Assembly: GCA_006226595.1 (NCBI GenBank)
Contig: SBGP01000031.1
Location: forward strand, 1-64,000
Direction of reading: 5' to 3'
DNA: 64,000 nt
Source of the DNA: Deltaproteobacteria bacterium
GTDB lineage: Bacteria > Myxococcota_A > UBA796 > GCA-2862545
Shown: in pieces, positions 2,191 to 13,608 of the stretch
How the letters are laid out: each line of letters opens with the position of its first letter
How positions within the stretch are numbered: position 1 is the stretch's first letter
Notes under the pieces: model-generated
What the model saw: only the letters and a program-made list of their open reading frames with translations
What the model was told of the DNA's origin: nothing
Database searches by the model: none
Made by a program: the position numbers and the translations under genes

Positions 2191-3384
2191 ATGTACACCA
2201 TCTCCGAAGACCTGCAGGGCGAGCTCGACGCCATCCGCGACGCCGGCACCTACAAGGACGAGCGCATCATCGTCTCGCCCCAGGCCGCGGACATCCATGT
2301 GTCCTCCGGCGCCGAGGTCCTCAACTTCTGCGCGAACAACTACCTGGGCCTCGCCGACAACAAGCGGCTGATCGAGGCCGCCAAGGACACGCTCGACACC
2401 TACGGCTTCGGCATGTCGTCCGTGCGCTTCATCTGCGGCACCCTCGACATCCACAAGCAGCTCGAGCGCAAGATCTCCGAGTTCCTCGGCACCGAGGACA
2501 CCATCCTCTACTCGAGCTGCTTCGACGCCAACGGCGGCCTGTTCGAGTGCATCCTCGGCCCCGACGACGCCATCGTCTCGGCGGCGCTGAACCACGCGTC
2601 GATCATCGACGGCATCCGCCTGTGCAAGGCCAAGCGCTTCCGCTACCAGCACGACGACATGAACGACCTGCGGGCCCAGCTCACCGCCGCCCGCGAGGCC
2701 GGCGCCCGCCGCATCCTCGTCGCCACCGACGGCGTGTTCTCGATGGACGGAGACATCGCCAAGCTCGACGAGCTGTGCGACGTCGCCGAGGCCTTCGACG
2801 CGATGGTCATGGTCGACGACTCCCACGCCACCGGCTTCGTCGGCAAGACCGGTCGCGGAAGCATCGAGCACTGCGGCGTCATGGGCCGCGTCGACGTGAT
2901 CACCTCGACCCTGGGCAAGGCCCTGGGCGGCGCCTCGGGCGGGTTCACCACCGGTCGCAAGGAGATCATCGACATGCTGCGGCAGAAGTCGCGGCCGTAC
3001 CTGTTCTCGAACACCGTGGCCCCGGCGATCGTCGGCGCCGCGATCGAGGCCTTCTCGATGCTGTCGGAGACCACCGAGCTCCGCGACAAGCTCGAGGAGA
3101 ACACGAGCTACTTCCGCGAGCAGATGACGGCCGCGGGCTTCGCGATTCGCCCGGGCGTGCACCCCATCGTCCCGATCATGCTCGGCGATGCGGCCCTCGC
3201 GGGTCGCATGGCGGACGCGATGCTCGAGCGCGGCATCTACGTGATCGGCTTCAGCTACCCGGTCGTGCCCAAGGGCGCGGCGCGCATCCGCGTGCAGATC
3301 TCCGCGGGCCACAGCCGCGAGCACCTCGACCGCGCCATCGCCGCGTTCACCGAGGTGGGCAAGGAGCTCGGCGTCATCGACTGA
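2191..3384 (+). CDS. kbl: Glycine C-acetyltransferase (2-amino-3-ketobutyrate CoA ligase)
   Basis: This PLP enzyme of the alpha-oxoamine synthase family interconverts glycine plus acetyl-CoA and 2-amino-3-ketobutyrate, usually in threonine catabolism. At 397 residues it is nearly the length of E. coli Kbl (398) and matches it closely: [36 protein letters not shown], and the PLP Lys at K243 in STLGKALGG. The start at 2191 has GTGGAGG about 4-10 bases upstream; an in-frame Met further upstream is less likely. The usual partner tdh (threonine dehydrogenase) is absent. A short-chain dehydrogenase lies 33 bases downstream and the oxidative gene block follows, so a biosynthetic role, supplying an aminoketone or working in reverse, should be considered. 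This role is inferred from position only. Confidence 0.93.
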
Positions 3385-3417
3385 CGCCGGCTATGGAGCC
3401 GCCACCACGGAGGCTCC

Positions 3418-11765: not shown

Positions 11766-12847
11766 GCATGCACCAGGCCCCCAAGGACGGACACACCCGC
11801 ACGGAGAACCGCTGGACCCAGCCCCTCCGTGAGCGGCGTGCGTTCGGCCGGACCGACGTGCTCACCGAGGGCTGGTACCCAGCGTGCCGCTCCCGCGAGC
11901 TCGGCCCCGCGAAGGCCCGTTCCGTCCGCATCGGGAGCCAGCGCATCGCGCTGTACCGCGGCGAGTCGGGCCAGGCCTACGCCCTGGACGCGTTCTGCCC
12001 GCACATGGGCGCGGACCTGGGCAACGGCACCGTGCACGGCGAGACCGTGCGCTGCGGCCTTCACGGCTGGCGCTACGACGCGACCGGCGCCTGCGCAGGC
12101 ACCGGCTGCGAGGCCAAGGCCCCGGCCACCGCCAAGGTCCAGGCGTGGCCCGTGCACGAGGCCTTCGGCACGATCTGGGTGTTCGCGGGACCCGAGGCCA
12201 GCCACCCCTTCCCGACCTGCCCCGGGCTCGACGGCCGCGAGGTCGACGCGCTGCGCGTCGGCAAGGTGCGGCTCTACGCCCACCACCACGCGATGATGAC
12301 CGGCGGCATCGACCTCCAGCACTTCAAGGCCGTGCACGGCCTCGACATCCGCTTCGACTACGAGACCCGCGAGCCCGCACCCGGCGTGCTCGACTACCAC
12401 CTCGAGGGCGACATCCCCGACGGCGGCTGGCGGGCGCGGGTGGGCAAGCGCCTGGTCGGACCGCAGTTCCGCTACGCCCTGCGCGTGGCCGGCGGCTCCA
12501 TCGCGGCCATTTCCTACGGCATGGACCAGCGCCTCGGTGGGACCGGACGCGCGCTTCCCTCACTGAACGTGCTCTGGGGCTGCATGCCGCTCGAGGACGG
12601 GGTGAGCGAGGTCGACATCTACCTGCTCGCCGAGAAGGGCCCCGGCGTACGGGCGCAGCTCAAGTGGGCCCTGCGCATCGCCACCACCCTCGGGCTGCTC
12701 GCCGTACTCGACGACGACGACAAGCGCGCGTTCCCGCACATGCGCTTCGACCCCGGCGCGCTGACCCGCGAGGACCGGGCGGTGATCGAGATGATGAAGC
12801 ACCTCGACGCGCTGCCCATCAGTGCGTGGTCGGAGGTCCAGCCATGA
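11762..12847 (+). CDS. Rieske [2Fe-2S] oxygenase 3 (KshA/cholesterol-desaturase-like)
   Basis: This third Rieske oxygenase has 361 residues. The cluster ligands are C79-x-H81 in CPHMGADLG and C98-x2-H101 in CGLHGWRYD. The catalytic site is D184-LQHFKAVH192, with His187 and His192 as likely iron ligands. It resembles the product of 4393-5403 more than that of 8549-9595, so the two may be paralogues doing related steps. The GTG at 11762 is preferred because it overlaps the GH3 stop as GTGA like other junctions here; an ATG two codons later is the alternative. Four Cys lie in a short segment after the Rieske motif (GACAGTGCEAK region), which is unusual. Confidence 0.88.
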   Translation: MSMHQAPKDGHTRTENRWTQPLRERRAFGRTDVLTEGWYPACRSRELGPAKARSVRIGSQRIALYRGESGQAYALDAFCPHMGADLGNGTVHGETVRCGLHGWRYDATGACAGTGCEAKAPATAKVQAWPVHEAFGTIWVFAGPEASHPFPTCPGLDGREVDALRVGKVRLYAHHHAMMTGGIDLQHFKAVHGLDIRFDYETREPAPGVLDYHLEGDIPDGGWRARVGKRLVGPQFRYALRVAGGSIAAISYGMDQRLGGTGRALPSLNVLWGCMPLEDGVSEVDIYLLAEKGPGVRAQLKWALRIATTLGLLAVLDDDDKRAFPHMRFDPGALTREDRAVIEMMKHLDALPISAWSEVQP

Positions 12848-13608
12848 GCCTGCGCCGCCCCACCCTCGACGAGTGGTTCAACGCCTACCAGCACCGCAAG
12901 ATGTGGCAGGAGCACTCGTTCATCACCGGCGGCATGTCCGTCGACGTGACCGACGTGGTCGCCGACTGGGGTGCCCGCGACGAGAAGCCGAACTTCCCGG
13001 CCATCCTCGCCAGAGCCGCGGCACTGGCCGCTCGCGAGCATCCCCGCGTGAACCGCGCCTACCTGCGCACCCTGCGCGGTGACCGCATCGTCGAGTTCGA
13101 GGGCATCCACATCAACATGCCAGTGCGCTTCGACACGCCGGATGGCCCGGTGCTCACGGCGGTGTGCCTGCGCGACGCCGACCATCGCACCGCCGCCGAG
13201 CTGCGCGACGAGATCCGCGATCACGTGAACAAGGGCCTCGACGGCACGCAGATCACCCGCATCGTCGCCAGCAAGCCGAACACGCTGTTCTGGCGGCTGG
13301 CCCTGCGGGGACTGTGGTTCGCAGCGTGGCGACTGCCGCTGGTCGAGCGCCACGCCGGCGCCATCGGCGTGAGCAGCACCGCGTCGGGCAACCGCTCGTG
13401 GCGGCACGCAACGTTCACCGGCGCCACCCCGACCTCGATGCTCATCGCGATCAGCGCGGTGCGCCGCGAAGAGGGCCGGACCCTGCTCGACATCGGGTTC
13501 ACCGGCGACCACCTCATCGTCGATGGCGTGACCATCCGCGAGTTCGGCCAGACCCTGGGCGACCTGCTCGAGGGCGTGCATCCCCTCGGGGTCGAGGCGC
13601 TGCGCTAG
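12844..13608 (+). CDS. Stand-alone 2-oxoacid dehydrogenase E2-type acyltransferase domain
   Basis: The 254-residue protein has the chloramphenicol-acetyltransferase-like fold of E2 catalytic domains. The active-site motif HLIVDG is at H223-G228 in FTGDHLIVDGVTIREF, and GAIGVSSTASGN resembles the conserved strand before it. It has no lipoyl domain and no peripheral-subunit-binding domain, so it cannot serve as a normal E2. Stand-alone relatives are believed to transfer acyl groups from CoA. It is the last of the ten overlapping genes and 22 bases separate it from the next gene. With the GH3-like enzyme and the beta-helix protein it makes three potential acyl-transfer activities in the block. 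Confidence 0.82.
   Translation: MSLRRPTLDEWFNAYQHRKMWQEHSFITGGMSVDVTDVVADWGARDEKPNFPAILARAAALAAREHPRVNRAYLRTLRGDRIVEFEGIHINMPVRFDTPDGPVLTAVCLRDADHRTAAELRDEIRDHVNKGLDGTQITRIVASKPNTLFWRLALRGLWFAAWRLPLVERHAGAIGVSSTASGNRSWRHATFTGATPTSMLIAISAVRREEGRTLLDIGFTGDHLIVDGVTIREFGQTLGDLLEGVHPLGVEALR

Follow-up and report, generated by a model that had tools for sequence, protein, structure and literature searches.

An overlapping ten-gene oxidative block, conserved in two phyla, as a candidate operon for an oxidised acyl-amide

We analysed a stretch of 64,000 nucleotides from a 7.23-Mb deltaproteobacterial draft genome (contig SBGP01000031.1, G000:C80 in our numbering), called the window below. Ten genes on its plus strand (4393-13608) encode three Rieske oxygenases, a ferritin-like di-iron protein, a dimetal enzyme of the CylC/AurF type, a ferredoxin and four proteins related to acyl-transferring or conjugating enzymes. 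Much the same set was found around the gene of the dimetal enzyme in 33 genomes of two phyla, and is more than a chance assembly. We judge it somewhat better than an even call that these genes form a single biosynthetic operon, coupled in translation, whose product is an oxidised acyl-amide (a small, lipid-like molecule).

Gene calling placed overlaps at all nine junctions, of 1, 1, 4, 4, 4, 1, 4, 4 and 4 bases, which bears out the overlaps described in an earlier interpretation made from the letters alone (the sequence-only reading). We infer transcription as one unit. The block opens with the Rieske oxygenase RieA (4393-5403; Pfam Rieske, E 1.7e-22), which is SdmA-like in its N-terminal part and has intact Rieske CxH..CxxH and DxxHxxxxH motifs. 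A GNAT-fold N-acyltransferase-like protein follows (5403-6158), which has no Pfam family and was assigned by predicted fold; its start was set at the ATG at 5403, the gene caller having taken an upstream GTG at 5388. Next come FerL, a ferritin-like di-iron protein with two ExxH pairs (6158-7063; Ferritin_2, 1.2e-8), the CylC/AurF-type enzyme (7060-8259), a plant-type [2Fe-2S] ferredoxin, Fdx (8256-8552; Fer2, 1.9e-7), and the VanA-type Rieske oxygenase RieB (8549-9595; Rieske, 1.2e-22, and VanA_C, 4.4e-10). The block continues with a hexapeptide-repeat acyltransferase-like protein, Hex, with a hydrophobic N-terminus (9595-10233; Hexapep, 1.4e-6), and a GH3-family acyl-acid amido synthetase (10230-11765; GH3, 1e-20, and GH3_M, 1.4e-11). 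It ends with the third Rieske oxygenase, RieC (11762-12847; 7.6e-22), and an E2/CAT-like CoA-dependent acyltransferase domain in which HxxxDG is present (12844-13608; 2-oxoacid_dh, 2.5e-10). The families named in the sequence-only reading were thus correct by Pfam and NCBIfam, or by predicted fold for the GNAT-like protein, with the AurF call weak by Pfam. Its two Rieske subtypes also held, as VanA_C occurs in RieB alone of the three.

Conservation was assessed with the CylC-like protein as probe, counting full-length relatives at E < 1e-150. Of 377 genomes sampled from the window's phylum, plausibly Myxococcota as the sequence-only reading had taken it, 5 hold such a relative (one of them being the window's own genome); in the phylum of Bacteriovorax sp. 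BSW11_IV, 28 of 290 sampled genomes do. The resulting 33 loci include the window and the genomes of loci L013-L016, which had been found beforehand by a named scan; that scan yielded Bacteriovorax sp. BSW11_IV, two Bacteriovoracaceae metagenome-assembled genomes (MAGs) and the MAG 'Deltapro3'. No locus was dropped, and a gene lying beyond a contig or stretch end was counted as lacking. G565, in which a 3.5-kb contig bears genes for Hex and a fatty-acid hydroxylase (FAH), was left out of the carriers because no CylC-like gene turned up in it.

The order CylC-like gene, Fdx, RieB on one strand was kept in 32 of the 33 loci, and a six-gene block of CylC-like, Fdx, RieB, FAH, Hex and GH3 genes in 27. 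Within the fetched stretches, Fdx and RieB were each present at 32 loci, FerL at 31, FAH, Hex and GH3 at 30, GNAT and RieC at 27, RieA at 26, the short-chain dehydrogenase/reductase (SDR) SDRb at 21, the E2-like gene at 11 and an Mpo1-like gene at 8; RieA was recovered for four more loci after a stretch was extended or on another contig. Nine core genes lay in one stretch at 22 loci and, once three stretches had been extended, at 25, so that they are together in at least 25 of 33 carrier loci and no scattering in the carriers was seen. In five of the other eight loci (L017, L060, L077, L078, L079) the contig breaks off close to the block. In L074 and L076 RieC is lacking from the stretch read, and the genome of L013 (G014) has a RieC-E2 pair at the end of another contig. 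The fullest form reads RieA, GNAT, SDRb, FerL, Mpo1-like, two RieC, E2, GH3, Hex, FAH, RieB, Fdx, CylC-like, and the unit comprises 10 to 14 co-located genes across carriers. The Mpo1-like protein of L059 and the E2-like protein of L068 were assigned by purpose-built profiles, having no Pfam match at E 0.01. Neither PKS (polyketide synthase), NRPS (non-ribosomal peptide synthetase) nor terpene genes were detected in the block by Pfam and NCBIfam, and the conserved gene set supports the coherent oxidative pathway that the sequence-only reading had proposed.

The enzyme of the fourth gene, called AurF-like in that reading, is better placed by its sequence with the dimetal-carboxylate halogenases CylC and NocO than with AurF. 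According to the available part of a 2026 preprint, ExxQExxH and HxxDExxH mark the halogenase family and ExxQExxH is absent from AurF (PMC12871659). Both motifs were found in 33 of 33 members, in the window as ESSQERAH (residues 124-131) and HFQDESYH (246-253), and in four of four cyanobacterial relatives. These four were the only records matched by tblastn in the plasmid collection (Stanieria, Gloeothece, Nostoc and Planktothrix; E 4e-43 to 2e-34, 92-94% coverage, 24.5-26.9% identity), and homology was judged against these CylC-type plasmid genes alone. In the Gloeothece and Planktothrix records the gene lies amid genes for a fatty acyl-AMP ligase (FAAL), an acyl carrier protein (ACP) and PKS, in the annotated order FAAL-ACP-gene-PKS, and in the Stanieria record it adjoins a sulfotransferase and a cytochrome P450 (P450). 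Both neighbourhoods are contexts of dimetal-carboxylate halogenases in the portion of the cyanobacterial survey at hand (PMC8406957). With the motifs invariant and the sole plasmid matches being cyanobacterial CylC-type genes, the family therefore fits the CylC-type halogenases better. What stands of the AurF-like label is the fold and HxxDExxH. A modest AlphaFold model (pLDDT 72.6; prediction took five sequences per family as input, from the window and L013-L016) aligned in VIA-align with AurF at Z 16.7, CmlI at Z 16.5 and the ribonucleotide reductase (RNR) R2 protein at Z 16.0. The Pfam AurF profile matched weakly: with a limit of E 0.1 it picked up 6 of 7 members, the best at 5.2e-5 and 22.9 bits under a cut-off of 29.6. 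A profile search of the PDB with the family gave nothing usable, and the window's protein alone gave no match.

The family is identical to CylC and NocO at eight of their nine active-site residues. The ninth, a glutamate, is Gln213 in 33 of 33 members and glutamate in four of four cyanobacterial relatives. In the accessible part of the NocO study, this glutamate is thought to be displaced in CylC and NocO, leaving a chloride site; it is E252 in NocO, where the E252A variant abolishes chlorination, and glutamine occurs at the variable site in a small subset of CylC homologues (PMC12101540). NocO chlorinates an acyl chain and is assayed with ferredoxin and reductase (same part of PMC12101540). 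Placed only through the alignment of the cyanobacterial CylC-type proteins, the AurF positions Asp135 and Glu196 correspond to Gln127 and Gln213. The sequences thus describe a CylC-like family with one consistent change, for which chlorination and hydroxylation are both possible.

The catalytic motifs of the other oxidative proteins appear intact. Rieske and mononuclear-iron motifs were complete in 32 of 32 RieB and 36 of 36 RieC proteins. The RieA Rieske motif was present in 25 of 26, the exception being truncated by a stretch end. Two ExxH pairs were found in all 31 FerL proteins, the cysteine pattern in all 32 ferredoxins and the histidine boxes in all 30 FAH proteins. The FerL profile matched the aldehyde-deformylating oxygenase 5uxg weakly (E 0.0016) in the PDB, and FerL gave no match in the plasmid collection. 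Two RieC genes occur at the cluster in 9 of 33 loci. The window's RieC is the orthologue of the E2-adjacent copy, with 46% identity to that copy in G659 and 33% to its neighbour. Outside the window, the same genome has a second RieC-like gene of 36% identity near a contig end (G000:C41:803-1846).

Among the acyl-transfer and conjugation proteins, the GH3 family profile matched plant GH3.6 in the PDB (E 1.5e-16), and Arg355, Tyr356 and Asp360 of the RYxxGD motif are invariant in 18 of 18 members; the glycine is not. The GNAT assignment rests on predicted fold: the model (pLDDT 84.4) matched GNAT acetyltransferases in Foldseek (best E 2.6e-6, probability 1.00) with TM-scores of only about 0.4 for the query (TMq) and 0.5 for the target (TMt). 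Pfam Acetyltransf_9 matched 2 of 17 members (best E 0.015), and a PDB profile search with the family gave nothing usable. The E2-like family is present at 11 loci and keeps HxxxDG in two of them, the window and L056. Hex was found in 27 of 28 carriers of the Bacteriovorax phylum. It was rejected as a specific marker, as 63 of 290 genomes match and 36 of these are without the CylC-like gene; a plasmid-collection search with Hex gave no match. One Hex paralogue (L097) follows a 2118-residue gene resembling PKS.

GNAT-like homologues were found in 12 records of the plasmid collection, 4 of which adjoin a GH3 gene or lie within about 4 kb of one. GH3 homologues were found in 5 records, and 4 of these (Burkholderia, Citrobacter and two Acinetobacter) are also GNAT-like sites; the fifth, from Streptomyces, adjoins PKS genes. 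On the Citrobacter portucalensis IncF plasmid NZ_CP134684.1 the GNAT-like gene overlaps GH3 (L092:7971-10212), and four radical S-adenosylmethionine (SAM) genes, an N-acetyltransferase and a PAP2 phosphatase follow; this set looks like another orphan conjugation pathway. In Acinetobacter baumannii NZ_CP064203.1 an overlapping GNAT-GH3 pair (L091:5153-11676) has, by eye, efflux-like genes on both sides, and the second Acinetobacter record also holds a pair. In Burkholderia arboris NZ_CP101525.1 (L094:12491-19921) a GNAT-like gene is followed about 4 kb on by GH3 and then by a RieB-like Rieske gene. The cluster also suggests that the unassigned GNAT-GH3 pairs on the Citrobacter, Acinetobacter and Burkholderia replicons have a conjugation chemistry in common.

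The pathway that we infer, including its substrate class, order of steps, amide bond, possible halogenation and role in the cell, would run as follows. The acyl substrate is probably free or CoA-bound and not bound to a carrier protein, because neither ACP nor FAAL was found among the ten genes; the Pfam and NCBIfam scan found none among the scanned neighbours in the window either. The block itself holds an acyl-activating enzyme, GH3. The CylC-family enzyme would functionalise an unactivated carbon by chlorination or hydroxylation, with electrons from the ferredoxin of the adjacent gene. The three Rieske oxygenases and FerL could add hydroxyl, desaturation or cleavage steps, and FAH and SDR would take part in most relatives, although neither belongs to the window cluster. 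Oxygen-dependent enzymes number five in the window cluster and six or seven in relatives. With ATP, GH3 would adenylate the carboxylate and couple it to an amine; further acyl groups would come from the GNAT, hexapeptide and E2-like enzymes. An MMPL-type exporter family near 6 loci and the joint presence of GNAT and GH3 in 4 of the 5 GH3 records of the plasmid collection are counted in favour of this pathway.

Several results weigh against it. No scaffold-building gene or substrate was identified for the ten-gene block. The window and L013 are without the cluster FAH and SDRb, and their genomes hold only distant FAH homologues: the best FAH-like gene in the window's genome scores 80 bits (profile A9), only roughly comparable with the 264-346 bits of the cluster copies in 29 of 30 cases (136 for one on a short contig), which come from a different, purpose-built profile. 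Few relatives carry the cluster. A full-length CylC-like match occurs in 2 of 21 genomes of the window's own family (G000-G020), and G001, of the same genus, is without it. Some parts are not specific. Eight of the 12 GNAT-like plasmid-collection records (Azospirillum) are without a GH3 match, and FerL and Hex paralogue pairs occur without the CylC-like gene; in 11 Hex-paralogue loci read, a FerL paralogue adjoined in 6 (L096, L098, L101, L103, L106 and L107, all of the Bacteriovorax phylum). Foldseek with the CylC-like model gave no match below E 0.001, the best being CmlI at 2.8e-3. Finally, with glutamine in all members at the site of NocO E252 and the alanine variant of NocO inactive, halogenation may be lost.

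The last point separates two versions of the operon. In one, ACP-independent radical halogenation in predatory and related bacteria, the glutamine-variant CylC enzyme would chlorinate a free or CoA-bound acyl chain, which after multiple hydroxylation would become an exported acyl amide; we regard this as possible but less likely than not. A version in which the same operon makes a halogen-free product, the dimetal enzyme being a hydroxylase, desaturase or other oxygenase, is a serious contender a little short of an even chance. The invariant Gln213 and the inactive E252A variant (PMC12101540, in part) speak for the halogen-free product, as do the nearest solved folds, both of oxygenases (AurF and CmlI), RNR R2 trailing by less than one Z unit. 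It has to accommodate that the halogenase-specific glutamine of ExxQExxH, absent in AurF in the portion of PMC12871659 available, is kept in 33 of 33 members, and that some published CylC homologues carry glutamine at the variable site (PMC12101540, likewise in part). N-oxygenation as in aureothin or chloramphenicol, the function of AurF and CmlI, would suit the top folds and the sub-threshold Pfam matches in 6 of 7 members. It is nevertheless very improbable, given glutamine in place of AurF Asp135 and Glu196 and a block with no arylamine-forming gene.

Two further explanations assign the block to other metabolism. Rieske oxygenases are often catabolic, and a block that degrades or detoxifies hydrophobic compounds or prey lipids could be imagined. 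An Mpo1-like domain fused to an amidohydrolase adjoins the L076 cluster, and Bdellovibrionota are described as obligate predators in the part of PMC12724312 at hand. Yet joining molecules is what the GH3, GNAT, hexapeptide and E2-like enzymes do, the cluster is patchily distributed and travels as one piece, and the families assigned in the conserved set, other neighbours being only partly annotated, include none for beta-oxidation, ring cleavage or thiolase; we regard catabolism as quite unlikely. Tailoring of a known membrane lipid (sterol or hopanoid, sphingolipid or ornithine lipid) is likewise an unlikely explanation, of slightly greater weight. All three Rieske proteins resemble SdmA weakly (69-80 bits), SDRb of L016 resembles KdsR (167 bits), FAH of L016 resembles OlsE (70.8 bits) and GH3 resembles OlsH weakly (22.5 bits), but these scores are far below the curated cut-offs of 600, 400, 475 and 620, respectively. 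The individual lipid candidates were not supported when tested. For sterol or hopanoid tailoring, a triterpene cyclase is encoded by 4 of the 33 carriers and by as many of the 28 non-carriers. A sphingolipid start with the upstream kbl gene as serine palmitoyltransferase (SPT) and its neighbouring SDR as reductase fails, as the gene is a true glycine C-acetyltransferase (TIGR01822, 685 bits, cut-off 493); SPT-like genes, none above cut-off, occur in 14 of 33 carriers and 12 of 28 non-carriers and do not track the cluster. For an ornithine lipid made via GH3, the OlsB/OlsF-type family PF13444 was found in 21 of 33 carriers and 10 of 28 non-carriers, and at two places in the window's genome. As non-carriers, each count used the same 12 relatives of the window plus 16 further genomes, which for SPT and PF13444 were ones with the Hex paralogue and for the cyclase other members of the Bacteriovorax phylum; carrier and non-carrier sets were neither random nor matched for completeness.

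Two comparisons of DNA bear on the history of the candidate operon. A segment of 8,010 bp that reaches from FerL to a point shortly beyond RieC (L017:1-8010 and L018:2050-10053) is 97.4% identical in G055 (completeness 76%) and G043, which belong to different genera; the sequence beyond it is unlike, as would follow from recent transfer of the cluster or from mixed bins. Between the window and L013, DNA similarity of about 75% begins with RieA and stops close to the end of GH3; outside this span only one short RieA-like patch in RieC is alike. The block therefore seems to travel as a unit, or else draft bins are mixed. The five genomes of the window's phylum were grouped in the tree of the CylC-like protein (86/80) and in that of RieB (68/86), neither strongly. 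The guanine-cytosine content at third codon positions was alike in the block (0.947; 9 genes of at least 600 bases) and in the rest of the window (0.930; 37 genes).

Upstream of RieA lie kbl (2191-3384) and an SDR gene (3418-4353), separated by gaps of 33 and 39 bases. The sequence-only reading had included both in a twelve-gene block. This extent was upheld for the ten overlapping genes and not for kbl and SDR, which by the fetched stretches are present in the window and in none of the other 32 loci. Downstream of 13608, on the same strand after a 22-base gap, are genes for a GT87 protein, a queuosine-precursor transporter, a pteridine-reductase-like SDR and FolB. Elsewhere in the window we noted an arsenosugar-type arsenite methyltransferase, ArsM (34280-35248, minus strand; 485 bits, cut-off 400), and a protein resembling lipoproteins, without a Pfam match at E 0.01, whose linker is a long Asp-Ser/Ala-Asp repeat (16976-18382, minus strand). 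Near other loci, grouping of neighbours by single linkage, with one member of each family identified, gave an amidohydrolase at 7 loci and a sodium/bile-acid-type symporter at 3, besides the MMPL-type exporter. The amidohydrolase with the C-terminal Mpo1-like fusion is at L076:15863-18046 (minus strand); Mpo1-like genes are separate in other loci.

The cluster has consequences beyond the window. Bacteriovorax sp. BSW11_IV, a named carrier with a record that bears no MAG label, offers a place to look for the product. A natural CylC-family series with one altered active-site residue bears on how a diiron enzyme chooses between C-Cl and C-OH formation. The enzyme is also a possible C-H halogenase free of a carrier protein, and as such would lend itself more readily to use as a catalyst. 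If the halogenation reading were true, the product would represent a halogenated lipid class so far not known in Bdellovibrionota and neighbouring groups.

Finally, we compared the candidate operon with known systems. OlsH, a GH3 homologue, makes N-acyl-ornithine with ATP, as stated in the part of PMC12493201 available. Window GH3 belongs to the same superfamily and probably uses the same ATP-dependent amide chemistry. In contrast to OlsH, it reaches 22.5 bits against the cut-off of 620, and an alpha/beta-hydrolase (OlsI) is missing from the ten genes; the OlsH route was moreover sought where OlsB/OlsF are absent (PMC12493201, same part), and genes of that type are present in the window's genome. 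With AurF and CmlI the window protein shares the fold and HxxDExxH, and differs from AurF in having glutamine for both Asp135 and Glu196. It has full-length homology to CylC-type genes, shares both motifs and eight of nine active-site residues with CylC and NocO, and the ferredoxin of the NocO assay parallels the adjacent ferredoxin gene of the window; it differs in the glutamine at the ninth residue (33 of 33) and in a block with no ACP gene (comparison with the available part of PMC12101540). Unlike that of CylC and NocO, its substrate is presumably not ACP-bound.

The closest parallel is found in cyanobacteria. The survey of Eusebio et al. 2021, in the part at hand, reports 36 orphan Rieske-containing CylC clusters with no known product; the same similarity-network cluster contains a few proteobacterial sequences, mostly deltaproteobacterial, and Rieske proteins and fatty-acid hydroxylases are most prominent in its neighbourhoods (PMC8406957). 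GH3, Bdellovibrio and 'myxo' have no occurrence in the text of PMC8406957. The sequence-only reading knew of no described pathway with this set. Our literature search, with most subscription papers outside its reach, found no product for it either, but an orphan class in which CylC homologues adjoin genes for Rieske proteins and fatty-acid hydroxylases has already been noticed (PMC8406957, in part). New, as far as the literature search shows, are the full gene set, its fixed order in two phyla, the GNAT-GH3 module and the invariant glutamine, together with gene loss in the window lineage and the joint transfer of the block. The likeness to the cyanobacterial Rieske-CylC clusters is drawn from their description, the plasmid matches being other CylC contexts. 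As described there, those clusters combine one CylC homologue with 2-4 Rieske proteins, compared with one and three in the window; most contain acyltransferases, with no carrier protein or substrate-activating gene nearby (PMC8406957, in part). Most also contain a sterol-desaturase-type or FAH gene, as do 30 of our 33 loci, and since the available text says 'most' (PMC8406957), its absence from the window and L013 does not exclude them from the Rieske-CylC class.

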